Shown: one piece after another, positions 1 to 51,963 of the stretch
How positions within the stretch are numbered: the stretch's first letter is position 1
Layout of the letters: each line of letters opens with the position of its first letter
Source: a virus
Virus record (IMG/VR): IMGVR_UViG_3300047175_000226
Coordinates: 1-51,963 of that record
Reading direction: 5' to 3' (one strand)
Length of the DNA: 51,963 nt
Program-made: the position numbers and the translations under genes
The notes under the pieces: generated by a model
Database searches by the model: none
Seen by the model: only the letters and a program-made list of their open reading frames with translations
What the model was told of the DNA's origin: nothing

Positions 1-276
1 CCCAATAACCTGAAGGTCCAACGCCACCTCCATATCCGCAGGACCCCCAGGACTATTCTTAGTCCCATCTACACTAACATCTGTGATGTTGGGGGCCGGC
101 AGTTGCATCATTTGAAATGCAATAGTTAAATCTGAGGGATTGTATCCCCCGCCAAGTTCAATCAAGCCAATGGTGCCAGCCCCGCTGGCACCAAGGGGAA
201 AATCATACTCCTGACAAAGCTCCGGAATCATCCAGCTTTGCGCCATTCTAGAACCATGTTTTAAGTAACTTTTCAT
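1..276 (-). CDS. S53 sedolisin (serine-carboxyl peptidase), 5' part, cut by window edge
   Basis: Ninety-two codons are open from an ATG at 276 to the left edge. Seen: IGLIELGGGYNPSDL at about residues 36-50, VSVDGTKNSPGG at about 67-78 and MEVALDLQVIG at about 82-92. These match the start of the mature catalytic domain of sedolisins/kumamolisins; the MEVALD stretch carries the E-x3-D pair of the Ser-Glu-Asp triad. The catalytic Ser would lie beyond the window. There is no signal peptide and no Pro-kumamolisin prodomain: the protein begins almost at the mature domain, so it may be made active or depend on another pro-part. Known sedolisins work at acid pH outside the cell. It is divergent from the gene at 328. 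An in-frame ATG at 246 is an alternative start; the ribosome site is weak for both. Confidence 0.85.
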   Translation of the reverse strand, partial: MKSYLKHGSRMAQSWMIPELCQEYDFPLGASGAGTIGLIELGGGYNPSDLTIAFQMMQLPAPNITDVSVDGTKNSPGGPADMEVALDLQVIG

Positions 277-327
277 CTTATACCAACCAGGACCGAAGGC
301 CCAAACAGTGTTGAAAGGAACAAATCG

Positions 328-621
328 TTGAAAACCACCAAAGACAAAAGAATCAAATCAGAGTGGGATAAGGAACTAGGGGCTAAGCTTTGGAAAGATC
401 CAACAATGAGTATTGTTAAAATCGCCCAACTTTGTGGAGGGAAAGAAACAGCGGTTAGATATTATGGGTATGAACATTGGGGGGTGAGGCCAAAATACCA
501 GCAACCAAGGCAGAAGCCAATTGAGGCACAAAAACCCCAACCTCTGGCCCCAGGGGCCTCTACACTCCCGCCCCTTCCCAGCCTGCAACTCCCACTTCCA
601 GACATAAAAATGGAGAACTAA
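328..621 (+). CDS. Small basic protein, unknown function, Pro-rich C-terminus
   Basis: Ninety-seven residues. The start chosen is TTG at 328, because AAAGGA lies 8 bases upstream and no ATG fits. Residues about 1-55 are charged and could form a short helical DNA-binding unit (KIAQLCGGKETAVRYYGYEHW looks like a helix-turn-helix with a trailing helix). Residues 56-90 are Pro/Leu/Gln-rich low complexity. The gene is divergent from the sedolisin and 2 bases before a small membrane protein, so the two probably form a mini-operon. No family is recognised; a regulator is only a guess. Confidence 0.55.
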   Translation: MKTTKDKRIKSEWDKELGAKLWKDPTMSIVKIAQLCGGKETAVRYYGYEHWGVRPKYQQPRQKPIEAQKPQPLAPGASTLPPLPSLQLPLPDIKMEN

Positions 622-623
622 AA

Positions 624-758
624 ATGAGCCTTCCAGTTGTAGTTTTGTTTCTAACAATAGTATTGCCCTTGGCAATCCTTGCTTGGCAAGCGCTAGCTTC
701 TGCTAATCCGATTTTAGTTTTTCTAATCATTGCTGCCCTTGCTGTCCTGGCCGGATAA
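624..758 (+). CDS. 44-residue very hydrophobic membrane protein
   Basis: The ATG at 624 has GGAG 8 bases upstream, and the reading ends at TAA 756-758. Almost the whole product is membrane-like: one segment at about residues 3-20 and another at about 29-43, separated by WQALASANP. This gives two short membrane helices and no charged tail. It starts two bases after the previous stop. Its end overlaps the end of the convergent ejection gene (727-2868) by 32 bases. Size and topology would suit a small holin or other inner-membrane peptide, but no endolysin is adjacent (the lysozyme is near 49.6 kb), so the role is undecided. Confidence 0.5.
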   Translation: MSLPVVVLFLTIVLPLAILAWQALASANPILVFLIIAALAVLAG

Positions 759-4566: not shown

Positions 4567-4576
4567 GCTAAGTCCC

Positions 4577-5113: not shown

Positions 5114-5137
5114 ATCCCAACTCCCTAATTCTCAAGT

Positions 5138-5911
5138 TCAAAAAGTTGAACCAGTATCAACACTAACAGGAGAGCCACTAAACAATCCCTGGTTATTCAG
5201 GGCTAGCAAAAGTCCAGTGTTGCTGGTGGTGCTGCCAATTCCACTCAATGCACTGGTGAGAGCGTTGGTTGAGCCGACAGTGCCGGCGGCGCTAGCCGCC
5301 CCGGCTGACATTAGGCTATTTCCAACATTACTACCGGTGTTCACCCCGACGTTGCCCAAATTGGCGGCGGCATTTTCACCTTGGGAGGCTACGCCTCCCA
5401 ACATATTGTAGATTTGCTGGTTTTGGGTCAGATAATTTTGGAACTGTTGTTGGTAGGTGGTGGAGGCTAAGCCTTCGGCGTAGTTGGCGGCGCCCTTTAT
5501 GGCGGAGCCACTGCTGCCAAGGCCCTGGGCAGCAAAGCCATTCTGTGCTGCTTGCAGCCCCTGTTGAAGTGTGAATTGATAACCTGGGGTTTGTGCCAAT
5601 TGCTGCATAGTCGGTTGGAAGGGGGCAATTAGACTGCCGTATCCCGGCCCTCCTGCGGTGGCTGCACCAGTTCCAATTCCACCTTGTAGCGCCGCTAGCG
5701 CCCCCTGGCCCGCCTGCATATAAGGCTGCAAATTAGCCTGGGTGGTATTAAACATATTCATTTGGACTTGGGCAGCCTCATCTGCCGCCTGAGCCTGCGT
5801 ATCCGCCGCCTGCTTCGAAGCATTGCTGCCCAAAACACCAGACACAAGCCCTGTGCCGGCGCTAATCGCCCCCGCCCCTATAATAGCCGCTGGCACACTA
5901 ATACTAGGCAT
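5138..5911 (-). CDS. DNA ejection/transfer protein (P22 gp7-like type), 257 aa
   Basis: Starts ISVPAAIIGAGAISAGTGLV, a Gly/Ala membrane-like segment (about 6-30). An Ala/Gln helical stretch (NASKQAADTQAQAADEAAQVQ) follows, then TPGYQFTLQQGLQAAQNGFAAQGL and GSAIKGAANYAEGLASTTYQQQFQNYL. The last two are the signature of a family found next to portal and neck genes in many podoviruses and annotated as DNA transfer/injection proteins. The product is probably carried inside the capsid and released into the cell envelope on infection. The ATG at 5911 overlaps the end of the sulfotransferase-GNAT gene by 8 bases. Confidence 0.75.
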   Translation of the reverse strand: MPSISVPAAIIGAGAISAGTGLVSGVLGSNASKQAADTQAQAADEAAQVQMNMFNTTQANLQPYMQAGQGALAALQGGIGTGAATAGGPGYGSLIAPFQPTMQQLAQTPGYQFTLQQGLQAAQNGFAAQGLGSSGSAIKGAANYAEGLASTTYQQQFQNYLTQNQQIYNMLGGVASQGENAAANLGNVGVNTGSNVGNSLMSAGAASAAGTVGSTNALTSALSGIGSTTSNTGLLLALNNQGLFSGSPVSVDTGSTF

Positions 5912-6911
5912 CAGTTTTTCTCCAAAGAGAATAACGAACCTGGGTTTGGCTAGCGCCTAGGCGTTGGAACAGTTTGCCAAGCTTAGCGCCCCTACCAGAC
6001 ATCGGATGATGGAAATGGACCACCTTTGCTCCGCAGGTCCAGAGATATTCTAGAGATTCATTCATCATCCGAATGCCTAGTCCTTGTGGAGCCGAAGGCT
6101 CCACAAACCAAACTCCCTGCGTAGCCATAAGCTGGCCTTTCGCCTCCGTATCAAACCCCAATTGCCAAATCAAATACCCAACCAACTCACAATTTATCCT
6201 AACAGTCCAAATCACCAATGCTCCGCAGGAATTAGCAGCGTCTAGCGCCGCCTTATCTACTTCGTAAGAATACCATTCTGGTATTCCAGCATTGGATTCT
6301 AAAAAATGGGCTTTGCCTAGAGCAATTGCTTCATCAGCCATGGATTCCCAAGGCTCTCTCCCGCACCAAACAAAATCGGCGCCAGCGGCAGCTTCGCTGC
6401 GCAGCAGAGAAATTTCAAAATTTCTCTCCTCCAGCCTCTCTAGTCTTTTCGCCCAATTAATCTCCAGTTTTACATTAACCAGACTCCGCCAGAGTTCAAA
6501 GTCAAAGGGAATTTCTTTAAGATACTCCCAAACTTCCGCCGCGCGAAGTGGATTGCTTAATTCATCAGAGTGGATTGATGGAACCCCTAGCGTAGCTAAC
6601 TCCTGCAAAGCGCTGGCGCGCAGCTCTATTTCTTCCCTAGCCCAAGGGGCGCCAAGGCGTTCTAAACTATCAATCACATCCTCGGGGTCTCGCCAAAGCA
6701 CCAAAAGCCTAGCCTTTGGCAGCACTCTTTGAATGGTTTTGTAAAATTCTGCCGCGCCAGTCTCCACCGAGCCGCCTGCGGCGACAACACTACAAGCAAA
6801 CTGATGCACTGAGCTAACGGTAGTTCCAAGATCGTGGGGAACTGCTAGCCACTGGCTCATCCAGTAGCTTCGACTACGCGGCAGACTTAGAACTAAAAAC
6901 GGATGTTTCAT
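5904..6911 (-). CDS. Sulfotransferase-like / GNAT acetyltransferase fusion, 335 aa
   Basis: Two enzymes in one chain. N-terminal (about 1-200): FLVLSLPRSRSYWMSQWL has the LPRSRSxW loop that binds the 5'-phosphosulfate end of PAPS, and LLVLWRDPEDVIDSLE resembles the 3'-phosphate-binding strand of sulfotransferases. C-terminal (about 215-335): VGYLIWQLGF, GVWFVEPSAPQGLGIRMMNESLEYLWTCG and KLFQRLGASQTQVRYSLWRK follow the GNAT order, with QGLGIRM as the acetyl-CoA loop. The start is ATG 6911, giving ATGA overlap with the upstream stop; a TTG at 6932 is less likely. It sits between neck and ejection genes, where phages often place a GNAT gene. The substrate is unknown; modification of a virion or host surface molecule is conceivable. 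Confidence 0.8.
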   Translation of the reverse strand: MKHPFLVLSLPRSRSYWMSQWLAVPHDLGTTVSSVHQFACSVVAAGGSVETGAAEFYKTIQRVLPKARLLVLWRDPEDVIDSLERLGAPWAREEIELRASALQELATLGVPSIHSDELSNPLRAAEVWEYLKEIPFDFELWRSLVNVKLEINWAKRLERLEERNFEISLLRSEAAAGADFVWCGREPWESMADEAIALGKAHFLESNAGIPEWYSYEVDKAALDAANSCGALVIWTVRINCELVGYLIWQLGFDTEAKGQLMATQGVWFVEPSAPQGLGIRMMNESLEYLWTCGAKVVHFHHPMSGRGAKLGKLFQRLGASQTQVRYSLWRKTDA

Positions 6912-10173: not shown

Positions 10174-13100
10174 TTATTGCAAATCTATGAATATTAGATT
10201 ATTTGCAGTGGTGGTGGAGGCTTGCCACGGGACAAATCCGGAGGGAGTGCTAATGGCGAAGGGGCCGGTTGGATTTAGGGTCACTTGACTACCGGTGTCC
10301 TGAGTGCCCCAAGTGATGAAACAGGGGCAATTTAGACCCGAAAACGAATTTCCCCCCACCCCTGTCGCCGGATTTGCACTGGTGCTGCTATTCCATGTCT
10401 GCCCCAACGCCCGCATAGACGGAGTAGAAACCCAAAGCTCACTGGTTGCAAAGTTCTGACACATAGTCACTGCGTCGCCGTTGGCGTCTGGGTTGGTGCC
10501 TGAAGATAACTTAGTGCCGTTGAAGAAAATTCCCTGTGGATTTCCGCTAGATGGATAGAAGCCAATAGCATTGGTATCGTATCCGGCGGTTCCACTCCCG
10601 GCCAAAGCATAAGTGCTGTTAGCAATTCCTATCCACATATCAGTTGTGACTGTGTTTACCTGCACTTCTTCACACTGGGAACCGGAGGAATAGCTTGTGG
10701 AACTCCGGCTACCACCCACGGCGACGGCGGTTCCGGTCGCAGTCAAATAGCCATTGGAAAGAGTAATACTCCCACTGGTGTCATTGGGATTCCACGTAGT
10801 TGTGCTGGGAGTTGGCGGACCGCTCCCGGTGCAAGAAGTGCAATTAATCTCCCCCCTAGTAATAACCGCCGAACTGCTAAGGGCGCTGGTAAGGGCGTTG
10901 GTGTTTGTCAGCAGTTCCATTCCAAAATTGTCTCCGCCAGACCACCATTGTTGCCAAGCAGAGATATTGGGAGTGTTTTGTTGAATCTGGGTAATTAATG
11001 TGGTTAGCGGAAAGCTTAAATCCGCAGTCTGTCCTGCTCCAAATTCGGCATAGAAAATTGGCTTCCCCCCAAATCCAGAACCAGAGAAATATCCATAATC
11101 TCCGGTGGTGTCACTTCCAGGGGTTTCCGAATAGATATCATAGCCTAAAATATCTACATAAGAATTTCCAGGATATGTAGCACCTTCACACGAAGCTTGT
11201 GCAGCCGTGCTTCCCAAATTTCCACAAGCATTTGCCGCATATATCCAATCCAGATTATTCAAACCTTTGGTATTTGTTAGATAATTCCATGTATATTGCC
11301 AGAGAGCAATAAATTGCGCAGCGGTAATTCCACTTCCGCCAGTGCAACAGGGCAAACTTCCAACAGCCCACCAATTCCAATTTCCGTTCATTTCTACAAA
11401 AGGCCGAAACATAACTGGAATGCCTGCATTTTGATACTGTTGTAAGTCAGTGGCAACAGCATTCATTTGCGAAATCCAATTAGTGTTAGCAGTAGTGCCA
11501 CTAGTGTAGATATCAGACCAGCCACCGGCTGGTTTGGTGAAATCGCCAGCACTATGTTGACAAGAGCCTGTTTCGGTCGCATCGCAATTAGCTGGATTGT
11601 CCGCAAACCAATTATATTCTATCAATCCACCATTGTTCCAATAATTTTGCGCATAGGAGCTAAAAGGACTGGAATCGTAGCCGTAAGTGCCTCCATCCTG
11701 CGCATCTATGCCGATAAAAGCTAGCCATTTGCTAGTAGTGTTGTAAATTGTCTGGATTGGGGCAAAGCCAAACGGATTTGAATTGGTGGGGGGAGATTCT
11801 GTAAACTGACCGGAGAGAATGCTAGTGCCTTGGATTTGCTTCAAGTAGGTTATTATGTCCCCTTTAGTTTTTATTCCCGTTGGCCCCTGCGTTGAGCCTA
11901 CGGCGAAGCTATTGCTAGTTCCCATCGCGCTCGGAGTGTTTACATCCTGGACAGAAATGGTGGATGCGTTGCTCGCCGCAAGGCCGGGAACGGTAAAGCT
12001 AAAACTGGTTGCAGTAATTTGGCCACTCTGCACCAGCGGGGCCAGGGCCGGAGGCCCCGCATCCAACCGAGTCCCCGGCCCATTTATCGGATAAGTCGTA
12101 AAACTCTGTCCCCCCTGATGCTGATTTCTCATAGGCACCAGCAAAGCCACCAATTTAGGAAAATCAGTATTCAGATCATTAATCCAAGAGCTGGGGACAT
12201 TCTGATCTGCATATAGGCAGTAGCAGCTAGACCCCTGGTCCCTAGTTATTGAGCCATAGTGTTGTAGGGTCCAAAAAATTTCCTGCCCTGCATTAGTCAA
12301 CCCAGTGGGCATAGTGGTGCTAGAGGGGATAAAAAGCTGGGTTCCATACACCAAATTCCCGGTATAATAATTCCCTGACTGTGCCGGGTCTTGGTAATCC
12401 TCATAAAGCTGGGGCCAAGAATTGGCGTTCAAAGTGCTGTTGTCTGAGGGGAAGCTGGTTCCACCGGAGGAATTGGCCTTCAGTGAACTAGATCTATGCG
12501 CGTAGCGCAGGACATGCTGGATTTTTGGCAGCGTGGTTCCAGGGATATAATTGGTCCCATTCAAATCACACCCGCGAATCAAGCCTGCTGCTTGGGTAAA
12601 ATTGCCATTTCCAGTTTCCCAATCCTCCGAATAAGTATCGGAGAGCAAATTTTCGGCTCCCCCAAAATTCCCTGGATTGCTTCCAGACGGAATGGAGCCA
12701 AATGGGCCGCTACCAGTGGCGGAGCTAAAAGGGCTGGCCTGTGTCGCCCATCCAAAGGGGGCAAATTGATATTCTATCCCCGCGTTTACCCCTGTGTTGT
12801 CGTGGAAAATATATTGATTGTCTCCACAGGTGCCAGGGACGTTGTTGCAATTCCCTGGTGGGGAAATCCAAGGCCCCGGAGGATAGCTCCCCGGAAGAAC
12901 ATGAGCAAAAACATTAAACTGCGTGCCACCAGGATTAGTAGTGCTTTTATAATTATCCCCAAGTCCAATAAAAGTAGCAGAAATGGAATGGGGATCATAA
13001 TTATCCCACACCGCAGCGCCATAATTACTTAACTGATTTATGTATCCCCCAACTCTGGCAGATTGGGTGTCAGAATCTGTGGCTGCGCCGTAAGTGGCCC

Positions 13101-14367
13101 CATTGCCTATCGGCGTGTTCCAAACATTATTATTTGTCCCTGGTTGACAAGTGTAGACCCGTTCCCCAGTTGGATTTAGCGATTGATAAGCTCCCCCATT
13201 CACCGAATACTGCAACTGCGGAGCGGCGCTAGCGCCGCTGATAGTCCCGGTGACGGTAAATTGTGTTCCCGGTGCCTGGGCGGAAATGGTGTTAACACTA
13301 ATACTCTCGCCACTAGCAGACGAAGCCTGGGCGAAAAGGAAGGAATTTATGGTAGTGTTGGACCAAACGTCTCCCCCGGAGGCATCAGTGTCCTGATGTC
13401 CGCAAGTCGGACACCGCGTATAGCGCATTTGGCTGGTGCCCGCCTGATTACTGCTAGCGCTGGTGATAGCGGTTGGATAGGCCGCATTGTTGGAAAGGGC
13501 GTTCCACATTGGGTCATTCCACTCTGACGGGTAGCTAGTGGTGTCGTTTGCACCAGAAAACCACCAAACCGGAACGGTAGACATTTGATTGCTTTGAGCC
13601 ATGGAAACTGTGCTGCTGCCGCAGCCATTAATTTGAAGCACCCCACCAGTCGAAGCGCCTGCGGCAAAGATTCTTCCCAAATCCCCGGTATAAGCGTTGT
13701 AGTGGAGCATAAAATACTCCGACCCAATACCGCCCAAGCTAAAGCCGTTTACATAAATTCTAGCAGGATCAATGGAATATTGGCCTTCTAGAAAAGTTAT
13801 CATATCCAAGACGGCGAAGGTATTTGGCCCGGTGTCCCCAGAATAAGTGGTTCCACTTCCGGTTACTCCGCTATTGCACCAGCCGCCCCAATTCTCCACG
13901 GCTCCGCCAGAAGTATCCGTAGTTTGGTCAGCATAGGGAAGGGCAATAAACGCCGGATAAGCGGTCAAAAAACCCACAGTATTATAATCCGCAGCCTCAT
14001 CATTTGTCAGATAAGTTGCATTAGTGGTAGAGCCGCTATACCAGTTGTCTCCCTCAGATTGGGGATGGAGCCAAATATACAGTGGATATTTATAATTAGT
14101 TCCATTATACTGTGCTGGGGGCAGAACATTGAAGTGGAATTTTTTTCCAGAAGCTAAAGTTATTCCAGAGAAAGATTCATCAAACGAAAGCCAAGTTTGG
14201 GTAGAGACCGTTCCGGTCAAGGGAGCCGGGACCGGAGACAAAGCGGCGGCGCCGCAGGCGCCTCCACAAATAAAAACAACTAACCAAATTGCCCATGCTG
14301 CCGCAGGCGCTGCCACAGACCCAGCGCAGCCACAGATTAATCTTTTATTAAACAATGTATTTCTCAC
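10174..14367 (-). CDS. Giant secreted tail enzyme: alpha/beta-hydrolase esterase + GH26 + SPRY-like domain, 1397 aa
   Basis: A signal-peptide-like N-terminus (about 15-42) is followed by an esterase domain (about 55-350) with NGFSLGG nucleophile elbow (Ser210), SGANDTT (Asp275) and CGHQDTD (His324), as in PHB-depolymerase/feruloyl-type esterases. A Cys-rich middle region (about 380-760, NSWPQLYEDYQDPAQ, LPKLVALL-type end) is not named here. The GH26 domain (about 870-1165) has RPFVEMNGNWNWW (acid/base Glu992) and FYAEFG (nucleophile Glu1108). A C-terminal SPRY/lectin-like domain (about 1190-1390, WIGIANSTYAL, IGFYPSSGNPQGIFFNG) follows. GH26 members cleave beta-mannan and related glycans; the esterase would deacylate them. 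Inferred role: degrading host exopolysaccharide. GTG at 14367 overlaps the upstream stop (GTGA). Confidence 0.8.
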   Translation of the reverse strand: MRNTLFNKRLICGCAGSVAAPAAAWAIWLVVFICGGACGAAALSPVPAPLTGTVSTQTWLSFDESFSGITLASGKKFHFNVLPPAQYNGTNYKYPLYIWLHPQSEGDNWYSGSTTNATYLTNDEAADYNTVGFLTAYPAFIALPYADQTTDTSGGAVENWGGWCNSGVTGSGTTYSGDTGPNTFAVLDMITFLEGQYSIDPARIYVNGFSLGGIGSEYFMLHYNAYTGDLGRIFAAGASTGGVLQINGCGSSTVSMAQSNQMSTVPVWWFSGANDTTSYPSEWNDPMWNALSNNAAYPTAITSASSNQAGTSQMRYTRCPTCGHQDTDASGGDVWSNTTINSFLFAQASSASGESISVNTISAQAPGTQFTVTGTISGASAAPQLQYSVNGGAYQSLNPTGERVYTCQPGTNNNVWNTPIGNGATYGAATDSDTQSARVGGYINQLSNYGAAVWDNYDPHSISATFIGLGDNYKSTTNPGGTQFNVFAHVLPGSYPPGPWISPPGNCNNVPGTCGDNQYIFHDNTGVNAGIEYQFAPFGWATQASPFSSATGSGPFGSIPSGSNPGNFGGAENLLSDTYSEDWETGNGNFTQAAGLIRGCDLNGTNYIPGTTLPKIQHVLRYAHRSSSLKANSSGGTSFPSDNSTLNANSWPQLYEDYQDPAQSGNYYTGNLVYGTQLFIPSSTTMPTGLTNAGQEIFWTLQHYGSITRDQGSSCYCLYADQNVPSSWINDLNTDFPKLVALLVPMRNQHQGGQSFTTYPINGPGTRLDAGPPALAPLVQSGQITATSFSFTVPGLAASNASTISVQDVNTPSAMGTSNSFAVGSTQGPTGIKTKGDIITYLKQIQGTSILSGQFTESPPTNSNPFGFAPIQTIYNTTSKWLAFIGIDAQDGGTYGYDSSPFSSYAQNYWNNGGLIEYNWFADNPANCDATETGSCQHSAGDFTKPAGGWSDIYTSGTTANTNWISQMNAVATDLQQYQNAGIPVMFRPFVEMNGNWNWWAVGSLPCCTGGSGITAAQFIALWQYTWNYLTNTKGLNNLDWIYAANACGNLGSTAAQASCEGATYPGNSYVDILGYDIYSETPGSDTTGDYGYFSGSGFGGKPIFYAEFGAGQTADLSFPLTTLITQIQQNTPNISAWQQWWSGGDNFGMELLTNTNALTSALSSSAVITRGEINCTSCTGSGPPTPSTTTWNPNDTSGSITLSNGYLTATGTAVAVGGSRSSTSYSSGSQCEEVQVNTVTTDMWIGIANSTYALAGSGTAGYDTNAIGFYPSSGNPQGIFFNGTKLSSGTNPDANGDAVTMCQNFATSELWVSTPSMRALGQTWNSSTSANPATGVGGNSFSGLNCPCFITWGTQDTGSQVTLNPTGPFAISTPSGFVPWQASTTTANNLIFIDLQ

Positions 14368-17958: not shown

Positions 17959-17971
17959 GGGGCTGCGCCCC
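17959..17971 (-). promoter_or_regulatory. GNA-loop hairpin overlapping coat stop and next RBS
   Basis: On the minus strand GGGGC-GCA-GCCCC fills the whole gap between the coat stop TAG and the TTG start of the next gene. The only candidate ribosome-binding site (AGGGG) is one arm of the stem, so coupling or attenuation of translation is plausible. Confidence 0.6.
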
Positions 17972-19194: not shown

Positions 19195-19251
19195 GTCCAG
19201 CCCTTTGCTAGCGCGGCCCTTCCGCGCAATGAGAAAGAAAAAGGGCTGGAC
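19195..19251 (-). promoter_or_regulatory. Nested RNA hairpin sequestering the coat-gene ribosome site
   Basis: A perfect 12-bp inverted repeat (19195-19206 GTCCAGCCCTTT with 19240-19251 AAAGGGCTGGAC) encloses a second perfect 6-bp hairpin (19211-19216 / 19222-19227, GCGCGG/CCGCGC, 5-base loop). On the mRNA the 3' arm of the outer stem ends exactly at the coat ATG and contains AAAGGG, the only ribosome site. The gap from scaffold stop to coat start (155 bases) is the longest inside the late operon. Confidence 0.75.
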
Positions 19252-19349
19252 TACGCCCGACGAATGTCCTGGCAGGGGATAAGGCTCCCCAGAGGCCGGC
19301 AAGACAGTTTAGGTCAGTCTAGATGACCATGCGCCGCAGGCTTCGCCGC

Positions 19350-20129: not shown

Positions 20130-20476
20130 CAAACTCTCCCCCTAATCAAAGTATTATCCAGCAACAAAGCTTCGTAAATTTCATTTGCCAATTCTTCATC
20201 CGGGCAAGTCCGAAGCATTCCGGCAAGCGTAGCCCTAGCTTGCGGCAAAAGTTTAGGCAAATTCTTCTTAACAAACCGAGCTTCTAGCTCCTTGGGCGAA
20301 GCCCCAGGGTTTAATTGCTTCCAGCATTTCCACCATTCATCATCTAGCATAACCACATCATATAGCTCATGGGCCATTCCGACAGCGGTTTCATACACTA
20401 ATTTATGTGCATGCTTAGATGGTCTAGCGCCTGCGGCGCTAGAATCTATATAATTAGCCACTAGGCTTCGTCCCAT
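20129..20476 (-). CDS. Unknown helical protein between transglycosylase and scaffold, 115 aa
   Basis: ATG at 20476, overlapping the end of the transglycosylase gene by 16 bases. The protein is wholly helical with conserved-looking aromatic and charged patches: VYETAVGMAHELYDVVMLDDEWWKCWK, ELEARFVKKNLPKLLPQARATLAGML, DEELANEIYEALLLDNTLIRGR. The phrase A..LYD.vM.dd..Y..Wk..np......e..fv..n.pkll..AR.tLa.mL occurs in hypothetical proteins beside portal genes of related phages. It could be a small head-assembly factor. No enzymatic site. Confidence 0.6.
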   Translation of the reverse strand: MGRSLVANYIDSSAAGARPSKHAHKLVYETAVGMAHELYDVVMLDDEWWKCWKQLNPGASPKELEARFVKKNLPKLLPQARATLAGMLRTCPDEELANEIYEALLLDNTLIRGRV

Positions 20477-36327: not shown

Positions 36328-37845
36328 ATGACCGAACATCCAGAACGCGAAACGCACTATGCCGTGCCAGAATTTTGGGTCTACACCTACAACTGGGAAA
36401 CCAAAAACGCTAACACTTCGATTTATCTGCCTAACAAGGTTGAGCCGGATGCCGCTACGGCACTGCTGGCCGCGCATCCGCCCGGTCAGTCCCTGCCAAG
36501 CCCTACCCGTCCCAGTCTGTGTCTGCCGTCCTACGTGACCCTGCGCCGCGCAACGTGGCAGGATCGTGAGGCGCTGGAACCCAGCGACGGACCATGCTGG
36601 GCACAACAGAAATGGTGGACGGATAACTGCGCAATCCATGCCGACCATTGCGTTCGTCCGTCCAAAACACATCCCGGCCTGATTTCGTATTTCCAGACCG
36701 CTGAAAAAGCGGCGCGCAATATCCGCACGCCAATCAAGGCCGGCCGCTACCTGACCAAATTCTTTCGCGATATCTTGTCAGAAACCGAAATCGCCAAAAT
36801 GGCGCGTTGGCATGAAACCGGCACACTGGACAACGATTATAACGATCCGGCCAAATACGAATTGCGGTTTGCCAAAACCGAGGAGGACATCGTTTCTGTT
36901 TATGAAAACGGTCCTTCTTCCTGCATGGCTGGCGGAACGGATGAATTTTCCACCGATGGCGCGCATCCAGTGGCGGTTTACGCCGCAGGCGATCTGGCCC
37001 TGGCCTACCTGCACTGCGTCGAAACCGACAAAGTGACAGCCCGCGCTCTTTGCTGGCCAGCCAAAACCGTGTTCGGCCGCGTGTATCCGACACCCGATAA
37101 CTGGGCCATCGACGGTTTCGTCAGTCAGCAGGACTCAGAGGCGATGCAAGACGCGCTCAGGTTCCGCTTGCGTGAAGCCGGTTACACCGAAGGACAACGC
37201 AATGGTGGCATTTTTGATGGTGCCAAACTGCTCAAAATCCAACTTGATGACGATTGTGAATACCTCATGCCCTATCTGGACTGGGGTATGGGCGTTGACG
37301 ATCGTGGCGACTATTTCGTTATCCGCAAGGATGGCGACCACGCATGCGACACAACCAATGGCGTTCTGCTGATCGAAGATAATCGACCGACCTGCGATAA
37401 CTGTGACGAACGATGCGACGCCAACGAGCTGTCCCCCGTCTACACCAGTGTCCGCGCCACAGGCCATCCCAGACACGAACATTATTGGTGCGAACACTGC
37501 GTCGATAGGCACGCCTTCTATTGCCATGGCGCTAACCAATATATCGCCGATAGCGTTGACAGTGTGACCGTGGGCGATCTCCGATACAGCCTTGCCTACG
37601 CCGAAGCCAATTTCACCCTGTCCGATCACAGCTGCGAATGGTTTGACGGCCGTGCCGTTAAGATGGCGGATGGCGAAATCTGGTCACAGGATGAGTTTGA
37701 CGAAAACGGCTTTGAATGCGCCTTCACCGGCGAAAAACTGCCAATCAAAAAACGCCACCCCGACTATCCGGAAATCAGCCGCGATCTGGACGATGAGCAA
37801 ATGACGGAATATCTGGCGACACTGGCAACGAAGGAAACAATCTAA
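36328..37845 (+). CDS. Unknown zinc-ribbon phage protein, 505 aa, foreign codon use
   Basis: The N-terminal two-thirds contain GRYLTKFFRDILSETEIAKMARWHE (about 139-163), FAKTEEDIVSVYENGPSSCMAG (about 185-206), then PVAVYAAGDLALAYLHC and ARALCWPAKTVFGRVYPT, a combination met in hypothetical proteins of diverse phages. Residues about 353-395 are metal-binding: CDNCDERC then WCEHCVDRHAFYCHG (C-x2-C-x3-C ... C-x2-C-x4-H-x3-C), followed by SQDEFDENGFECAFTGEKL. Function unknown. ATG has AGGGA 8 bases upstream. Leu codons are mostly CTG whereas neighbours use CTA heavily, so this gene and the next look recently acquired together. Confidence 0.7.
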   Translation: MTEHPERETHYAVPEFWVYTYNWETKNANTSIYLPNKVEPDAATALLAAHPPGQSLPSPTRPSLCLPSYVTLRRATWQDREALEPSDGPCWAQQKWWTDNCAIHADHCVRPSKTHPGLISYFQTAEKAARNIRTPIKAGRYLTKFFRDILSETEIAKMARWHETGTLDNDYNDPAKYELRFAKTEEDIVSVYENGPSSCMAGGTDEFSTDGAHPVAVYAAGDLALAYLHCVETDKVTARALCWPAKTVFGRVYPTPDNWAIDGFVSQQDSEAMQDALRFRLREAGYTEGQRNGGIFDGAKLLKIQLDDDCEYLMPYLDWGMGVDDRGDYFVIRKDGDHACDTTNGVLLIEDNRPTCDNCDERCDANELSPVYTSVRATGHPRHEHYWCEHCVDRHAFYCHGANQYIADSVDSVTVGDLRYSLAYAEANFTLSDHSCEWFDGRAVKMADGEIWSQDEFDENGFECAFTGEKLPIKKRHPDYPEISRDLDDEQMTEYLATLATKETI

Positions 37846-38843: not shown

Positions 38844-38893
38844 GCCCGCTGCCGCAGGCGGCTGCGCCGCAGGCACCAAAGGAACCTAACCAA

Positions 38894-41022: not shown

Positions 41023-41318
41023 AAAAAACCTTATGCTATCCCATAGGTTCTATCTTAACTTTCACCGACGGAGAGTATTCGGATTTTCACCTAGCTGCAT
41101 ATTTAGTCACAATTAAATATTGTGACATGCCTAAACTAGCGCAAGAGTGCGCAAACGGAAAAATTGCCCATAAAGACTTGTTTGCAAATCCAGAAAACTT
41201 TCCTGCCTGGTTAATAGTAAATGGCTACGCAATGCCTGTAGACCACTCTGAGGTTCATCTAGGTGAATATGGAATTTGGAACAAAGAGTTTGGAGTAGTT
41301 TTAGGAGAAAAATTATGA
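41019..41318 (+). CDS. Unknown AT-richer small protein, 99 aa
   Basis: ATGA overlap with the previous gene. Mixed alpha/beta, no low complexity and no palindromes: TLCYPIGSILTFTDGEYSDFHLAAYLVTIKYCDMPKLAQECANG, then FPAWLIVNGYAMPVDHSEVHLGEYGIWNKEF. The base composition is more AT-rich than its neighbours, hinting at another source. No family recognised. Confidence 0.55.
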   Translation: MKKTLCYPIGSILTFTDGEYSDFHLAAYLVTIKYCDMPKLAQECANGKIAHKDLFANPENFPAWLIVNGYAMPVDHSEVHLGEYGIWNKEFGVVLGEKL

Positions 41319-41764
41319 AAAATCTAACCCTTCCCCTGGTAGGCGCCCACTTCCGGCCTCCGGCCAAGCAAATCCTAGCCCACCTGCCCGGCGGCACCCC
41401 CCTAATCCTATGGCCAGAACCAACCAACCCCTACGACCACAAAGCCATAAAAGTTCTCTGCCAACTCCAATCCACACTCCCAATTCTCCAATACCCCCTT
41501 TTAGAAACAGCCCTTGAGGGAACCGGATTTGATCTAATGGAGCTACTGCGTAGTCCAGATTTAATCCATCTGGGCTATTTGCCAAACTCAAATGGAAAAC
41601 TCGGTGCCGAAGGCGGCAACGCCGAAGCAGCCGCTTTAGCTGCTGACAACAATTTGGAAGTCTGCGATCTCCAAGCTACCCTACACTTTAACCTAGAAGA
41701 CAAGCCAATGGTCTACATCGCGGCGCAGCCGGCGGCGCAGGCAAACGATGGAGCCGGTCAATGA
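41315..41764 (+). CDS. Stand-alone HIRAN-domain protein, 149 aa
   Basis: The start is ATG 41315 (TATGA overlap). LPLVGAHFRPPAKQILAHLPGGTPLILWPEPTNPYDHKAIKVL (about 5-48) and DLIHLGYLPNSNGKL (about 80-95) follow the HIRAN pattern: first strand, G-x-P-L-x-L-x-x-E-P-x-N-P-Y-D-x-A-I-x-V, then GYLP. HIRAN domains bind free 3' DNA ends in HLTF and occur alone in many bacteria and phages. It lies next to a helicase gene, suggesting help at forks or breaks. The C-terminal half is Ala/Asn-rich and palindrome-encoded. Confidence 0.75.
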   Translation: MKNLTLPLVGAHFRPPAKQILAHLPGGTPLILWPEPTNPYDHKAIKVLCQLQSTLPILQYPLLETALEGTGFDLMELLRSPDLIHLGYLPNSNGKLGAEGGNAEAAALAADNNLEVCDLQATLHFNLEDKPMVYIAAQPAAQANDGAGQ

Positions 41765-42240
41765 CAACCAAAGCGCCTGCGGCGCAGCCGCAGTCACTCA
41801 CCCAAATAATCTATTGCTGGCAAAGCCAGCAATTAACCCCAGGCGACTTGCTTATTGTAAAAGACAATGAATTGATCGGAGTAGTGCAACCGGCGCCAGC
41901 CCGGCCGGCGCCAGCCTTTTCAGAAAAAAAGCCAGTAACGCCCGCGAAGCGGGCGAGGGCGGCTGCGCCGCAGGCGCCACTAGAAAAACTAGTGCCACTA
42001 GAAAAACTAAAAGACCTTCTTCTAGAAAAAGGCCCATTATCCACAGGACAAATACTCAACCATCTCAAAATCTGTGGTATGGAAAACAGACAAAAAGCTG
42101 GGATTTTTATCCGAAATATGGTCCATGCGAAAGTATTAGTTGTCTGTCCCTCGGATAGAAAAAGACAAAAATTATATTCCCTACCGGTGCCTCCGGCGGC
42201 AAATGGAGCTACGCAGCATGGAATTTACCCCAACACCTGA
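41761..42240 (+). CDS. Winged-helix-like protein with Ala/Pro linkers, 159 aa
   Basis: ATGA-coupled to the HIRAN gene. An N-terminal strand-rich part (LTQIIYCWQSQQLTPGDLLIVKDNELIGVV), a long Pro/Ala/Lys linker, a short duplication LEKLVPLEKLKDLLLEKGPLS, then STGQILNHLKICGMENRQKAGIFIRNMVHAKVLVVC. The last is a winged-helix pattern as in many plasmid and phage regulators. Its end overlaps the helicase start by 23 bases. Possibly a partner or regulator of the helicase; unproven. Confidence 0.55.
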   Translation: MTTKAPAAQPQSLTQIIYCWQSQQLTPGDLLIVKDNELIGVVQPAPARPAPAFSEKKPVTPAKRARAAAPQAPLEKLVPLEKLKDLLLEKGPLSTGQILNHLKICGMENRQKAGIFIRNMVHAKVLVVCPSDRKRQKLYSLPVPPAANGATQHGIYPNT

Positions 42241-43756
42241 ACAAGAGGCTATCCGCGAAGCCTTCCGAGCGAAGCGAGGATCTCTGCTAGTCGAAGCTGG
42301 TGCCGGGTGCGCCAAAACCTCTACCCTAAAATGGGCTGTGGCCTCCGGCCGAGACATCGGCCTAGCCCTAGCCTTCAATCGCCGAATCGCAGAAGATCTG
42401 CAGGGGGCTTTGCCCCCGGCCTTCACCGTCAAGACCTTCAACAGCCTAGGCCACCAAGCCTGGATTCGCACCCTACCCCCCGGCACAAAAATAACAATCG
42501 ACCCAAACAAAATAGGCAAACTAACCTCGGAGTTGCTCCGCAACTCCAAAATCCAAACCACCAACGACCAATGGCAAAGTCTAAATCAACTGGTTAAAAA
42601 TGCTATGCAAAATGGAATCCTACCCACAAACGACAACAAAGAAGACTGGAAGGCTATCGCCGATTCTCAGTCTATGTTTGACGAAGATTTTGAGCTTCTT
42701 TGGCCCCTGCCCCAGCAAATTCTAGCCAACACAGCCGAATACGCTAGGCAGGGAATTATTAGCTTCGAGGATCAAATCTACTGTCCGACCGTCCTTGGAG
42801 GAAAATGGACTAAATACCCCCTCGTCCTAGTGGACGAGGATCAGGATTTAAGTCCCCTAAATATCAAAATGCTTTCAGCCAGTGCTGCCGCAGGCGCCAG
42901 AATTGTAGCCATGGGAGATAAGAGGCAGGCGATTTATGCATGGCGCGGTGCAAGCGGCGAAGCCGCCCAAGAAATAAAGGCCCTGCGCCCGCAGGGCGCA
43001 TTCATCGAGCTTCCCCTCCTAACCACCTTCCGTTGCCCCCAAGTCATCGTAGAACGCCAACAATCCCATGTCCCTGGCTTCCGGGCTGCGCCGCAGGCGC
43101 CGAAGGGCGCAGTCCACTCCCTGCTGCGCAGCAACTGGTCATGGGACACCATAGCCTCCAAAGCCTTCGGCAACACCCTAGCCATCCTCTGTCGAAATAA
43201 CGCCCCAATAGTCAGCCTAGCCTTTCGCCTGCTTCGCCAAAACATAAGCGTCCAAGTTCTAGGCCGCGACATCGGAAAGGGTCTAACAGCAATCATAAAG
43301 AAAATCTCCCCATCTGCCGACGCCACCATTAGCCGAGTATTAGGCCAGCTATCCGAGTGGGAAAGCCGCGAAGTCGCAAAGCTGCGCGGAGAAGCCGCAC
43401 AAGAAAAACTCTCCGCCATCTACGACAAATGTGAAAGCATCCGAGCTATCGCCTCCGCCACCGAATGCAACAGCCAAAAACAGTTAATTGATTTGATAGA
43501 AAGACTCTTTGCCAGAGATTCTGGCAAAGTGACCCTAAGTTCAATCCACAAGGCCAAGGGGCTGGAATGGGACACTGTGGTTCACCTGGACCCCTGGCGA
43601 ATACCCTCAAAATTTGCCCTTGCCTGCGGGGGCTGCGCCCTGGAACAGGAAAGAAACCTGCTCTATGTGGCGGAGACTCGAACCAAACACACCCTAATCC
43701 TGGCCTCTTTAGCAGACTTCTACGCCTCAGGCGCGCCTCCGGCGCAGGCCTTTTGA
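42218..43756 (+). CDS. UvrD/PcrA-like superfamily 1 helicase, 512 aa
   Basis: The start ATG 42218 has GGAG 9 bases upstream and begins MEFTPTPEQEAI (Q-motif-like). Walker A VEAGAGCAKTSTLKW (27-34), motif Ia LALAFNRRIAEDL, VKTFNSLGHQAW, Walker B YPLVLVDEDQDLSPLNIKML, motif III IVAMGDKRQAIYAWRGAS, motif IV-like TTFRCPQ, motif V SSIHKAKGLEWDTV, motif VI RNLLYVAETRTKHTLILA. The enzyme unwinds DNA 3' to 5' with ATP in repair, recombination or replication. It is shorter than UvrD (720), as phage and RNA-free versions often are. Ala-rich palindrome inserts occur at SASAAAGARI and RAAPQAPKGA. Confidence 0.88.
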   Translation: MEFTPTPEQEAIREAFRAKRGSLLVEAGAGCAKTSTLKWAVASGRDIGLALAFNRRIAEDLQGALPPAFTVKTFNSLGHQAWIRTLPPGTKITIDPNKIGKLTSELLRNSKIQTTNDQWQSLNQLVKNAMQNGILPTNDNKEDWKAIADSQSMFDEDFELLWPLPQQILANTAEYARQGIISFEDQIYCPTVLGGKWTKYPLVLVDEDQDLSPLNIKMLSASAAAGARIVAMGDKRQAIYAWRGASGEAAQEIKALRPQGAFIELPLLTTFRCPQVIVERQQSHVPGFRAAPQAPKGAVHSLLRSNWSWDTIASKAFGNTLAILCRNNAPIVSLAFRLLRQNISVQVLGRDIGKGLTAIIKKISPSADATISRVLGQLSEWESREVAKLRGEAAQEKLSAIYDKCESIRAIASATECNSQKQLIDLIERLFARDSGKVTLSSIHKAKGLEWDTVVHLDPWRIPSKFALACGGCALEQERNLLYVAETRTKHTLILASLADFYASGAPPAQAF

Positions 43757-44550: not shown

Positions 44551-44580
44551 AAGCGGCTGCGCCGCAGGAGGCTTTGCCCA

Positions 44581-47859: not shown

Positions 47860-47902
47860 GCGCCGCAGGCGCACAAGAAATAAAATCTCGTTAGGAAAAT
47901 CT

Positions 47903-49531
47903 ATGCAAGAAGAAATTACTACTATAACAACTTCCCCCCGGCGAAGCCGGCGCCAAGCCCTAGTTGGAATTGGCCAAGCCTTAATTGGAATTGGCACCAC
48001 AATAGCTTTTCGTCCGCCGCCTGCGGCAGCCCAACCTGGTCCAGTTTCTTCCACCTTTAACAGCTTAATTACCTCTAGAACTTACGTCGCGGATTCTTTT
48101 GGACTATCATCTTCCCTCTCCGATTGCTCAACTGCATTTAACGCTTTAGCGACGTTGGTTAAAAACGCTGGGGGCGGGAAAATAATCTTCCAAGCCGGTG
48201 AAACCTACACATTCACCAATTCCATAACTATTGATGTCAGTTACGTTTCCCTTGACTTAAACACTGCAAAATTCAACTTCTCTGCCATAGCCTCTGGCAA
48301 TTTTTGCACATTAACCACTAGCCAGGGAGCGTTTTCCGGAAACTGGTATACCAACGTAAATAGAATAGAAAACGGTTTCTTCCAAGGTTCTGGGCAAAGT
48401 TCCACGGTGAATACTTTTGTCTGGGCTCCGTATACCTCTAGCGGAACTTATGCCGCCGATAACACATTATTTCGCCAATGCACATTTGCCTATTGTGGCG
48501 TTGTCTGGGGAATTGGCAACGGTGTCAATTTTAACCTTGCGGAAAATTGCCTCGTCACCAACTGCGGGACCGGCGCATCGGTTTTAACAAACATCAACAA
48601 CGGGGAAAGAATAACCTTAACAAATGTAACTTTCACCACCGTTACGACCGCAATAACCGATGCTAATATATCAAGCCCGATCGCCGGTGTTGAATTTGTC
48701 TGCACAAATTGCTCCTTTGATGATTGTGGGCAAATTTTATATTCTACTCTAATCCATCTAATTTGTGACAATTGTCACGCCGAACAGTTCACTGACGCTG
48801 CAATACCGGTTTCTCTCAACGGGGCGCTTTCGGCATTTATTTGGATAGGCGGGGTTTTAATCCTAAATAAAGTAGGAAGTTCAAATATGACAAATTATTT
48901 TGCCTATTGTGCCTCAGCAGTTTATGAAGGGATAACAATAGCAGATGCGACAATTTCTCCGCAAGGATTCTATTTACCACAGATTCTGGTTTCCGGAACC
49001 GGCCCGACCAAGCTTTCCAATAACATCCTTCCTCAATACAGCTATTTTGACTTGTCTTCAGAAAGCACCAATCTAATCCCAGACGGGCACTTTGCCTCCG
49101 GCAATATCCAGTCGTGGACCGGAAGCCCCAGCGGAGATGTGGCATACGATGGAACTAAGGGAAATCTGGCCAATGGTTGCATCAAACTTACCGGAAGTGC
49201 CGCGACGGTAACGGCGACGATAACCAGACCGGCGGTGCCAGGGGTGATTTGTGGGATATCCTCTTACATAGAAACAAGCGGACTGGCGTCACATTCCGGA
49301 ACTTGGGCAATAAACATCTATGCCTATGATTCCGTTGGGAACTCTCTAGGACAAGTTTGCTATTCCTCAATATCCGGATCAGACAGTGCCTCTTGGACCC
49401 TATACAAATCTTACACTCCTTGCACCACCCCAGCAGGAACCGCGACAATCAAGATAAATCTGTCCCTAACCTCTGATGGCAGCGGAAGTGCCATAGCCTG
49501 GTTTGATGATATTTTTGCAGGATTTGCCTAG
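47903..49531 (+). CDS. Beta-helix protein with Tat-like signal and C-terminal carbohydrate-binding-like domain, 542 aa
   Basis: Residues 13-43: RRSRRQALVGIGQALIGIG ... AAAQ, i.e. a twin-arginine SRRQAL box, hydrophobic stretch and AAA-Q cleavage. Then YVADSFGLSSSLSDCSTAFNALATLVKNAGGGKIIFQAGETYTF, the usual start of phage/pectate-lyase-like beta-helices, with turns such as CTNCSFDDCGQILYSTLIHLICDNCHAEQF. From about 395, NLIPDGHFASGNIQSWTGSPSGDVAYDG ... SASWTLYKSYTPCTTPAGTATIKINLSL ... AWFDDIFAGF is a CBM/jelly-roll domain. It may bind or cut polysaccharide. The Tat signal implies export folded, odd for a virion protein. RBS AGGA 7 bases upstream. Confidence 0.7.
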   Translation: MQEEITTITTSPRRSRRQALVGIGQALIGIGTTIAFRPPPAAAQPGPVSSTFNSLITSRTYVADSFGLSSSLSDCSTAFNALATLVKNAGGGKIIFQAGETYTFTNSITIDVSYVSLDLNTAKFNFSAIASGNFCTLTTSQGAFSGNWYTNVNRIENGFFQGSGQSSTVNTFVWAPYTSSGTYAADNTLFRQCTFAYCGVVWGIGNGVNFNLAENCLVTNCGTGASVLTNINNGERITLTNVTFTTVTTAITDANISSPIAGVEFVCTNCSFDDCGQILYSTLIHLICDNCHAEQFTDAAIPVSLNGALSAFIWIGGVLILNKVGSSNMTNYFAYCASAVYEGITIADATISPQGFYLPQILVSGTGPTKLSNNILPQYSYFDLSSESTNLIPDGHFASGNIQSWTGSPSGDVAYDGTKGNLANGCIKLTGSAATVTATITRPAVPGVICGISSYIETSGLASHSGTWAINIYAYDSVGNSLGQVCYSSISGSDSASWTLYKSYTPCTTPAGTATIKINLSLTSDGSGSAIAWFDDIFAGFA

Positions 49532-49557
49532 CGGCTGCGCCGGCTGCGCCGCAGGCT
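49532..49557 (+). repeat. Tandem CGGCTGCGC palindromes between genes
   Basis: Immediately after the TAG: CGGCTGCGC repeated, ending GCCGCAGGC. Intergenic representative of the dispersed family, separate from the ribosome site (AAAGGAG) of the next gene. Confidence 0.75.
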
Positions 49558-49578
49558 CAAAGACAAAGGAGTTAAACA

Positions 49579-50326: not shown

Positions 50327-50586
50327 TGTCCAGCGCCGCAGGCAGCGCCGAAGGCGCCCTTCCGATAAGCTCCGCCCTCAGCGAAGCTTCTCCAGATTCG
50401 CTCCGCGAGCTTTTTGACCGAGATCCAGAAAGCTATTCCACCCAAGACCTAGCCCGAGTGGTCGCCGAGCTTCGCGCGCAGCGCGAACGCTTTGCGCTAG
50501 CCGAAAAAACTGCCTCCGCTCCCAAAGGCAAAAAACTCCAAATCAACCAAAAAATCAACCTATCAGCAGAGGAATTAGGACTATGA
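50326..50586 (+). CDS. Unknown small protein with SAEELGL tail, 86 aa
   Basis: The start is GTG 50326, sharing a base with the previous TAG (TAGTG) and AAGGGG about 9 bases upstream; the in-frame stretch from 50251 overlaps the previous gene. The core SPDSLRELFDRDPESYSTQDLARVVAELRAQRERFALAEKTASAPKGKK resembles a family of short phage proteins (P..L.ELf.RDP...s..Dl..iv..lR.qR). It ends INLSAEELGL, the shared tail. It lies ahead of the recombination nuclease, supporting a DNA-metabolism role. Confidence 0.6.
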   Translation: MSSAAGSAEGALPISSALSEASPDSLRELFDRDPESYSTQDLARVVAELRAQRERFALAEKTASAPKGKKLQINQKINLSAEELGL

Positions 50587-50795
50587 GAAAAAACGAAGAC
50601 CCAATACAAATGATTGTAATAGAAGCGGTGGAGACTATTGAGCAGCAGGCGGATATGTTTTACTGGTCAATATTTGGCACCGGGTCGGGGAAGGAAAGCC
50701 TTTTGGCAAAGGGGGAAGAATCTTCGATAGAAAAAGCACTTCAGAAAATTAAAGAAAAATTAAAATACCTTGCTGCGCCGCAGGCGGCGCAATGA
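50583..50795 (+). CDS. Unknown small acidic protein, 70 aa
   Basis: ATGA overlap on both sides (with 50326-50586 and with the nuclease gene), so it is embedded in a coupled operon. Helical and acidic: MIVIEAVETIEQQADMFYWSIFGTGSGKESLLAKGEESSIEKALQKIKEKLKYL, ending AAPQAAQ (palindrome). No family recognised. Confidence 0.5.
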   Translation: MRKNEDPIQMIVIEAVETIEQQADMFYWSIFGTGSGKESLLAKGEESSIEKALQKIKEKLKYLAAPQAAQ

Positions 50796-51724
50796 ACTCC
50801 TCCTTTTCCACCCAACTCCCCAGCTTGCAGCTAGCCATAGATTCTACCAGTCTAGGGACATTTAAGGAATGCCCACGGAAATACTACTATTCCATAGTCC
50901 TAGGCCGGGTGCCTAAAATCCAGTCCGCGCATTTGTCCTTCGGACTTTGGCTTCATCAAGCCCGCGAGACCTACGACCAAATGCGCAGCCTGGGTGCGGA
51001 GCACCAAGAGGCCCTGCAGACCACGGTGGAAAAGGCGCTGCGCAGCACTTGGAACTCCGCCCTTGGCCGGGGGTGGATTTCCGACATCCCCGAAAAAACC
51101 CGCCTAAGCCTAATTCGAACCATTGTCTGGTATTTGGACGAACTGGGCCAAAATGATCCAATCGAGACAATTCAATTGGCCAATGGAAAACCAGCGGTGG
51201 AATTGAGCTTTCGGTTTTATGCCGAAGGCAACAGTCAAGTCACCGGGGAGCCAATTTTACTCTGCGGTCACATGGACCGAATCGGGCGTCTGGGCGACAA
51301 CCTCTACGGAGTAGACATCAAAACCACAAAACGAGCCTTGGACCCGAGATTCTTCGCCCAATTCTCCCCAGACAACCAAATGAGCCTCTACACCATAGCC
51401 GGAAAGGTTGCCTTCGGCCAGGATTTGGCCGGAATGATAATCGACGGAATCCAAGTTGGAGCAGGCTTTGCCCGCTTCCAACGGGGACTAGTCCCCCGCA
51501 CCAAAGAATCCTCCGACGAATGGTTGGTTCATTTCTGGTTCTGGCAAAGGCAGATGGAAAATTGTGCAGAAAGCGGCATCTGGCCCCTAAATGACAAAAG
51601 TTGCGGGAACTATGGCGGGTGCCCCTACCAGTCTGTTTGCGGGCGTGCGCCGCAGGCGCGAGAGCGCTGGCTAGAAGCCAACTTCTCCCAGCGAAGCTGG
51701 GATCCCCTCCAAATCCGAGGTTAG
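50792..51724 (+). CDS. Cas4/RecB-like PD-(D/E)XK nuclease with Fe-S cluster, 310 aa
   Basis: LGTFKECPRKYYYSIVLG (Cys27 and the helix of PDDEXK_1 nucleases), AHLSFGLWLHQARETYDQM (His), ILLCGHMDRIGRLGDNLYGVDIKTTKRA (Asp then D-x-K of the catalytic core), NQMSLYTIAGKV (Q-x-x-x-Y motif) and SCGNYGGCPYQSVCGRAP (Cys271, 277, 283). The four Cys fit a 4Fe-4S cluster as in Cas4 and AddB. A single-strand exonuclease role in recombination is likely. ATGA-coupled start; followed by the Sak4-like ATPase, a pairing seen in other phages. Confidence 0.85.
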   Translation: MNSSFSTQLPSLQLAIDSTSLGTFKECPRKYYYSIVLGRVPKIQSAHLSFGLWLHQARETYDQMRSLGAEHQEALQTTVEKALRSTWNSALGRGWISDIPEKTRLSLIRTIVWYLDELGQNDPIETIQLANGKPAVELSFRFYAEGNSQVTGEPILLCGHMDRIGRLGDNLYGVDIKTTKRALDPRFFAQFSPDNQMSLYTIAGKVAFGQDLAGMIIDGIQVGAGFARFQRGLVPRTKESSDEWLVHFWFWQRQMENCAESGIWPLNDKSCGNYGGCPYQSVCGRAPQARERWLEANFSQRSWDPLQIRG

Positions 51725-51729
51725 CCAAA

Positions 51730-51963
51730 ATGCCCTCCCTTTCCCAACACCATTCCAGCGAAACCACCAAAGCCCTGGTAATAGGCGATAGCGGGTCCGG
51801 AAAAACCGGAGCGCTAGCTTCGCTAGCCAACGCTGGATATAATTTGCGAATAATAGACTTGGACAATGGATTGGACATTTTGAAAAATCTTCTCTCCGAC
51901 CCAAAGTCAAAATACAGCTCAGACGCGCTAAAACGCGTCGAGTTTGAAACCATAACCGATCCG
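51730..51963 (+). CDS. Sak4-like RecA-fold ATPase, 5' part, cut by window edge
   Basis: ATG 51730, 78 codons open to the right edge. ALVIGDSGSGKTGALASLANAGYNLRIIDLDNGLDIL shows Walker A GDSGSGKT (19-26) and a Walker B-like IIDLDNG (about 41-47), the usual start of phage Sak4/AAA_24-type recombination ATPases. It follows the Fe-S nuclease by 5 bases, so the two probably work as an exonuclease and annealing/strand-pairing set. The ribosome site overlaps the end of the nuclease gene and is weak. Confidence 0.75.
   Translation, partial: MPSLSQHHSSETTKALVIGDSGSGKTGALASLANAGYNLRIIDLDNGLDILKNLLSDPKSKYSSDALKRVEFETITDP

Follow-up and report, generated by a model that had tools for sequence, protein, structure and literature searches.

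A genome-wide excess of C(GNA)G DNA hairpins in a P22-like podovirus contig

Introduction

What kind of element is a short palindrome that recurs along an entire phage genome, within genes and between them, on either strand? The question is raised by a virus contig of 51,963 bases (IMG/VR record IMGVR_UViG_3300047175_000226; "the window" below means this whole stretch), which is a P22-like podovirus by its coat (PF11651, 1e-35), portal (PF16510, 2e-143) and large terminase subunit (Terminase_3, PF04466, 3e-40). An initial annotation, made from the letters alone, had noticed a family of mini-palindromes with GNA or TNC centres and offered three meanings: a proliferating palindromic element, sites for a hairpin-reading protein (for polymerase, packaging or recombination), or a repeat shared with the host. 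Loops of the GNA and cGNNAg types are exceptionally stable in DNA. At N4 promoters, hairpin extrusion is governed by a C:G closing pair and a G..A loop (PMC4496689). We show here that the unit in the window is a structural rule and not a sequence repeat: a G-N-A loop, closed by C:G and followed by roughly 3 to 5 more unbroken pairs.

Results

Counted on both strands, the window contains 71 copies of CCGCAGGC, 63 of GCCGCAGGC, 41 of GGCGCAGCC, 24 of GGCGAAGCC, 20 of GGCGGAGCC and 6 of GGCGTAGCC. The count for GCCGCAGGC (39 forward and 24 reverse, with none for a control in reversed letter order) agrees with the roughly sixty copies first reported, and the other forms described as numerous are of about the right abundance, except for GGGGCGCAGCCCC, which occurs once. 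Triloop stems of at least 4 bp number 514, against 218 in dinucleotide shuffles, and stems of at least 6 bp number 91 against 15. This excess is held by GNA/TNC loops (for example, GAA 43 versus 4.0 and TGC 47 versus 4.1 in the same shuffles).

Restricting the count to C(GNA)G cores whose stems reach 4 bp or more left 170 hairpins, compared with 27.1 when flanks were permuted (z=28, about sixfold over chance). The GNA lies on the plus strand in 88 and on the minus strand in 82, at a mean spacing of about 300 bp, and hairpins are about twice as dense between genes (7.6/kb) as in genes (3.7/kb). These positions and strand counts bear out the original description of elements in genes and gaps alike and in both orientations. 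A separate count within genes gave 170 GNA stems against 33 in synonymous (codon-preserving) shuffles; with a C:G closing pair required, the count was 128 against 10.3±3.0 in 60 shuffles that kept proteins, codons and dinucleotides (maximum 17). The control core G(GNA)C gave 13 versus 6.0 in the latter type of shuffle. GNA stems also occur at 4.2/kb in the window and at 0 to 2/kb in 100+ related contigs of similar GC content. Thus, the excess survives the two comparisons that the initial annotation had named as decisive, codon-preserving shuffles and same-GC phages, and we conclude that a genome-wide excess of hairpins is real.

We then asked which features of the hairpin define it, comparing the pairing of the flanks around each core with that of permuted flanks. 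Around C(GNA)G, pairing was in excess at pair 1 (422/235), pair 2 (289/161), pair 3 (170/99) and pair 4 (101/64), fading at pair 5. In the window, the same profile was flat for G(GNA)C, A(GNA)T, C(GNG)G, C(CNC)G and C(ANG)G, and T(GNA)A showed a slight excess only. When 128 triloop cores were ranked, C(GCA)G (76/6.1), C(GAA)G (54/4.2) and C(GGA)G (30/4.1) took the first three places and C(GTA)G (10/1.5) the fifth; the fourth was C(GCC)G, a core that overlaps chained copies. The first description therefore had the right loop class, but it must be narrowed to C(GNA)G, since other closing pairs show little or nothing; the earlier view of a family defined by the extra-stable DNA GNA mini-hairpin was right. 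Stems zip outward from the loop: 101 were fully paired versus 9.8 expected, and 69 versus 17 had the first three positions paired, but stems with the first pair broken and the rest paired were not enriched (11 versus 14.8). No base outside the core is constant, and the stem sequence varies freely.

The DNA-stable tetraloop cGNNAg was likewise enriched (20 versus 5.9), but the RNA-type tetraloops cUNCGg (2 versus 2.8) and cUUCGg (0 versus 0.7) were not; some control tetraloops were also in two-fold excess, so this result is supporting only. Hence the most apt description of the elements is as DNA hairpins, rather than as a sequence repeat or RNA structure. The absence of RNA tetraloop enrichment also bears on whether the hairpins merely reflect messenger RNA (mRNA) structure or codon and base composition. 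Many elements do lie in genes, and Ala/Pro/Gln-rich protein ends use CCG-CAG-GCG, as such an explanation would have it; the excess persists, however, when proteins, codons and dinucleotides are held fixed, and the GNA falls about as often on the sense strand of genes (74) as on the antisense strand (63). These counts contradict the explanation, and we regard it as scarcely credible.

Many relatives of the window are found in IMG/VR, and we compared them by the same statistic, C(GNA)G stems of at least 4 bp over the permuted-flank expectation. The closest relative, L009, shares 72% portal identity and scores 12/3.5. A second contig from the metagenome of L009, L262, scores 34/6.8 and carries homologous helicase and nuclease genes; the two are probably pieces of one sister phage. 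The favoured stems differ, with many copies of GGGGC-GAA-GCCCC in L262 and a preference for CGCC/CGGC-GCA in the window. The sister phage thus shares the hairpin rule and not the stem sequences. Among about 128 cores, C(GAA)G ranks first in L262, L009, L044, L034 and the pooled relatives (139 versus 67), but not in bacteria (23 versus 20.9). In a portal tree the window and L009 form a clade (support 100/99), and the strong trait is found only there; in farther relatives it is weak, patchy or absent. Weak excess was seen in L044 (20/6.0) and L047 (15/5.2), and none in three named P22-like phages, PAE2 (9/7.0), phiAX1 (4/8.8) and MW202674 (4/3.4). Pseudomonas phage PAE2 is the best named-phage match to the portal, at 44% identity, and a megablast of window positions 20000-44000 matched no named phage.

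The sister contigs allowed us to follow individual sites over 13.9 kb of ungapped codon alignment. Most window elements align to sister sites that are not hairpins, as do most of the 9 C(GNA)G elements in the portal gene (21581-23935, minus strand). Gaps abut only about 6 of the 40 or so elements aligned. As the alignment at hairpin sites is mostly free of gaps, hairpins arise by substitution in place. In a site-retention test for selection, C(GNA)G stems kept their pairs at a frequency of 0.43 and triloop stems present by chance at 0.45, with no preferential retention of hairpins between the sisters. Since retention is the same as for chance stems, single hairpins are not maintained, although their density is.

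This pattern also speaks to whether a small mobile or copied repeat, similar to repetitive extragenic palindromes (REP) or small dispersed repeats (SDR), was inserted at many places. GCCGCAGGC is strongly favoured and partly chained, as in a cluster at 20576-20635 in which three copies plus GGCTGCGCC form hairpins that share arms. But from about 6 nt outward the sequences flanking GCCGCAGGC carry no more information than background, and the lack of any flank shared by its 63 copies beyond that distance indicates that they are not an inserted repeat; moreover, few elements touch gaps, and stems vary freely. A proliferating palindromic element, as first suggested, is already contradicted for most copies, and we consider it very improbable overall.

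A third possibility is that the hairpins serve a virion RNA polymerase as single-stranded promoters, as in N4. The closing pair and loop are identical, and our scan, applied to the first 20 kb of N4 as a positive control, recovered exactly three hairpins, before gp1, gp2 and RNAP1; it also recovered a run of about 20 same-strand intergenic hairpins in an unrelated contig described below. In the window, however, hairpins lie on both strands, mostly inside genes, and are not conserved by site. The largest open reading frame (ORF), of 1397 aa, contains a GH26 domain, and no giant polymerase is present in the contig. More generally, the strand neutrality, the intergenic enrichment and the lack of site conservation argue against N4-type promoters, mobile repeats and mRNA structures alike. 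We therefore give hardly any credence to the idea that these are sites for a hairpin-reading polymerase of the N4 type, which these findings contradict; a polymerase gene lying beyond the contig is all that might save it.

Pattern scans of viral contigs for other carriers returned mostly chance matches and two strong ones, both of a different kind. The first (G509; IMGVR_UViG_3300028025_005184, locus L554) is an unrelated 51.7-kb contig in which some twenty GNA hairpins of 5-10 bp lie at 5.3-17.3 kb, almost without exception on a single strand and in the gaps between small minus-strand genes. The array resembles an unusually large collection of early promoters of the N4 type, although the contig showed no gene for a giant polymerase over its 51.7 kb. 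The second (G512; IMGVR_UViG_3300042332_000965, loci L556, L557, L562 and L563) is an unrelated 66-kb siphovirus with DNA polymerase and tape-measure genes. It contains 31 GNA hairpins of 5-7 bp, mostly in genes, with GNA on the same strand in 22 of the 31; T(GAA)A cores are enriched as well (21 versus 1.9), and the contig opens with four copies of one hairpin, 37 bp apart.

We also asked whether the feature is shared with a host that, by its own replication or repair, carries these hairpins throughout its DNA, the phage having ameliorated to it. The weak, patchy excess in L044 and L047 does not track the portal tree, as would be expected of a host-dependent trait. Against this, 20 bacterial regions showed no excess (82 versus 76.7 expected), and no comparably dense genome was found among about 500 sampled, comprising 289 Alphaproteobacteria, 88 Cyanobacteria, 115 Verrucomicrobiota and mixed phyla, a sample that excludes Acidobacteriota, among other groups, and may miss the host of this phage; the surveys of the three bacterial groups used GCCGCAGGCG or GGCGNAGCC. 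The suggestion of a host-shared repeat is thus not supported, and we think it unlikely. Two leads were set aside. The 18-mer GCCGCAGGCGGCTGCGCC gave only single chance matches in GC-rich bacteria, none of them dense, and a Patescibacteria locus (L166) that is dense in 1.2 kb belongs to a 0.6-Mb genome with 21 copies.

Individual hairpins show the range of the family. The longest stem, of 10 bp, is TTGTGGAGCC-GAA-GGCTCCACAA (6084-6106, plus strand), inside a minus-strand gene. Stems of 9 bp are found on the minus strand at 5381-5401 (TTGGGAGGC-TAC-GCCTCCCAA, inside a gene) and 20423-20443 (TCTAGCGCC-TGC-GGCGCTAGA). An 8-bp stem, GGAGTTGC-TCC-GCAACTCC (42529-42547, minus strand), lies in the UvrD-like helicase gene, and the homologous site in L262 has no hairpin. 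For the 7-bp stem TCCCAGC-GAA-GCTGGGA (51686-51702, plus strand), in the PD-(D/E)XK nuclease gene, the right arm is present in L262 and the left arm is absent. Overlapping chained hairpins make up GCCGCAGGCGGCTGCGCCGCAGGC at 28388-28411, an identical 24-mer recurs at 38851-38874, and an intergenic GGCTGCGCCGGCTGCGCCGCAGGC chain lies at 49533-49556. Ala/Pro/Gln-rich protein termini and linkers (APQAP, AAPQA), for example near 50088 and 41761, are encoded by hairpin sequences; judging from these reading frames, the hairpin elements may shape protein ends.

The genome that carries the hairpins has its left arm of genes on the minus strand and its right arm on the plus strand. The P22-type coat protein gene (17971-19302, minus strand) is nearly free of C(GNA)G elements, with 1-2. 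Other products include a transglycosylase, an endolysin and, at 10174-14367, a tail protein bearing a glycosyl hydrolase domain of the GH26 family. The hairpin excess is among the lowest in this tail gene and in another at 47903-49531, as if these were recent acquisitions. The right arm encodes a UvrD/Rep-like helicase (42140-43756, plus strand), common to the window and L262, and a PD-(D/E)XK nuclease (50792-51724, plus strand) with 61% identity to its L262 counterpart. Adjoining the helicase, the product of 41276-41764 has a weak HIRAN match (E=0.009, below the cut-off) and a homologue in L262. A search for viral relatives of the gene at 36328-37845 returned none.

Several unrelated right-arm proteins end in a common C-terminal tail, roughly S-x-E-(D/E/A)-L-G-L, encoded by differing nucleotides. 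Such tails precede stops at 40422, 41022, 44057 and 50586 in the window and at 996, 2684 and 5343 in L262, and two of the L262 homologues retain the tail. By analogy with single-stranded DNA-binding protein (SSB) or with clamp-binding peptides, it could be a shared partner-binding tail.

Discussion

The window hairpins are akin to HIP1 in abundance and to N4 promoters in anatomy, and are a member of neither class, because they have no fixed sequence, may lie at any position and on either strand, and are not accompanied by a giant polymerase. HIP1 (GCGATCGC) and other iterated cyanobacterial palindromes also reach very high copy in genes and gaps, but HIP1 is a fixed, loopless octamer linked to methyltransferases (PMC4390886), whereas the window, a phage, follows a structural rule with free stem sequence; no DNA methyltransferase was found among the window proteins scanned, which covered part of the ORFs. 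N4 early promoters share the G..A triloop closed by C:G, stems of 5-7 bp and the same extrusion and stability rule (PMC4496689). Unlike the window, with about 170 hairpins on both strands and mostly in genes, N4 has three, upstream of genes and on the template strand, and a polymerase of ~3,500 residues. REP/REPIN elements and cyanobacterial small dispersed repeats are short and hairpin-forming as well, but consist of a conserved 20-plus nt spread by insertion, and the window has no conserved sequence outside the core. In the coding palindromes of nematomorph mitochondria, many perfect inverted repeats lie within functional genes; those repeats reach 284 bp, and the abstract describes no loop rule (PMC6649704). 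A literature search limited to open-licence papers found no matching description, in keeping with the initial statement that no known phage repeat system is alike. That annotation was thus right about a stable-hairpin family in genes and gaps, on both strands and without a described counterpart, but none of its three meanings is supported as stated.

How, then, might the hairpins be made? The explanation towards which we lean, at a little short of an even chance, is that they are a by-product of a continual mutational process acting through the folded hairpin. Replication or repair would expose single strands, or supercoiling would extrude arms, and c(GNA)g cores would fold most readily. Synthesis or repair might then copy one arm from the other (template switching, or "quasi-palindrome correction"), perfecting the pairs that adjoin the loop. 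Most genomes would undergo the process too rarely for it to be noticed; in this lineage it would run at a very high rate, or single strands would be exposed to a very high degree, leaving hairpins at a mutation-selection balance. Under such a balance hairpins would be densest between genes and few in conserved genes, that for the coat among them, which would lose most such changes. The enzyme could be a phage helicase or nuclease, or host replication and repair.

In favour of this mutational origin are loop-adjacent pairing only at C(GNA)G, zipping from the loop, loops of DNA and not RNA type, strand neutrality, a rule common to the window and L262 despite their different stems, the first rank of C(GAA)G in relatives but not in bacteria, neutral site turnover, the doubled intergenic density and the agreement with the closing pair and loop that govern extrusion at N4 promoters. 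Template switching is an established source of perfect hairpins (PMC8794818), creating and perfecting their arms (PMC8794818, PMC7202029). Its products resemble those of the window in having perfect stems next to a small loop, but the arm-copy signature was not seen here. Template switching is known as a rare class of mutation, and no genome that it has saturated with a single type of loop has, to our knowledge, ever been described.

Four observations weigh against this origin. Copying from a template should alter one arm and spare the other, yet both arms differ to the same extent from the sister phage: an arm-asymmetry test gave 35 versus 40.5±5.3 (p=0.90), with low power at 37% divergence. 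The arms of elements have also diverged no more and no less than background (0.37). One-arm copying has thus left no visible signature, but divergence of 37% would largely erase one. The C(GNA)G core is itself frequent (747 versus 405 for G(GNA)C), which is not explained by arm copying alone. Finally, stems are markedly biased towards CGCC/CGGC in the window and towards GGGGC in L262, which suggests that some spreading occurs at the level of sequence too.

The main rival is a diffuse selected signal, in which many redundant hairpins would be read as structure by a phage or host protein, with density counting and single sites not, as for Chi or uptake sequences; roles might include packaging, recombination, a polymerase, or protection of single strands from nucleases. 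Hairpins are dense in both sister phages, their strict structural specificity matches the extrusion needs of N4 promoters, UvrD-like helicase and PD-(D/E)XK nuclease genes occur in both phages, and such a signal would not require site conservation. It does, however, predict better retention than the 0.43 versus 0.45 that we observed, and there is no strand bias, no constant base outside the core and no agreement in stems between the phages; the strong trait is also missing from relatives that do carry a homologous nuclease gene. We consider this selected signal possible, if doubtful.

We tentatively propose, as perhaps the case, a new genome-wide nucleic-acid signature: hundreds of extrudable DNA hairpins set by folding physics and not by sequence, whose density a dedicated process would uphold and which would be read, or tolerated, for their structure. 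The genome is in any case a natural catalogue of DNA hairpins that form in vivo, having arrived independently at the c(GNA)g loops that measurement had revealed to chemists and to those working on N4. If the hairpins are mutational, it offers a system for studying hairpin-templated mutation at genome scale; if they are selected, it points toward a hairpin-reading protein not yet known. Either way, iterated phage motifs can be structural rules, not repeats.

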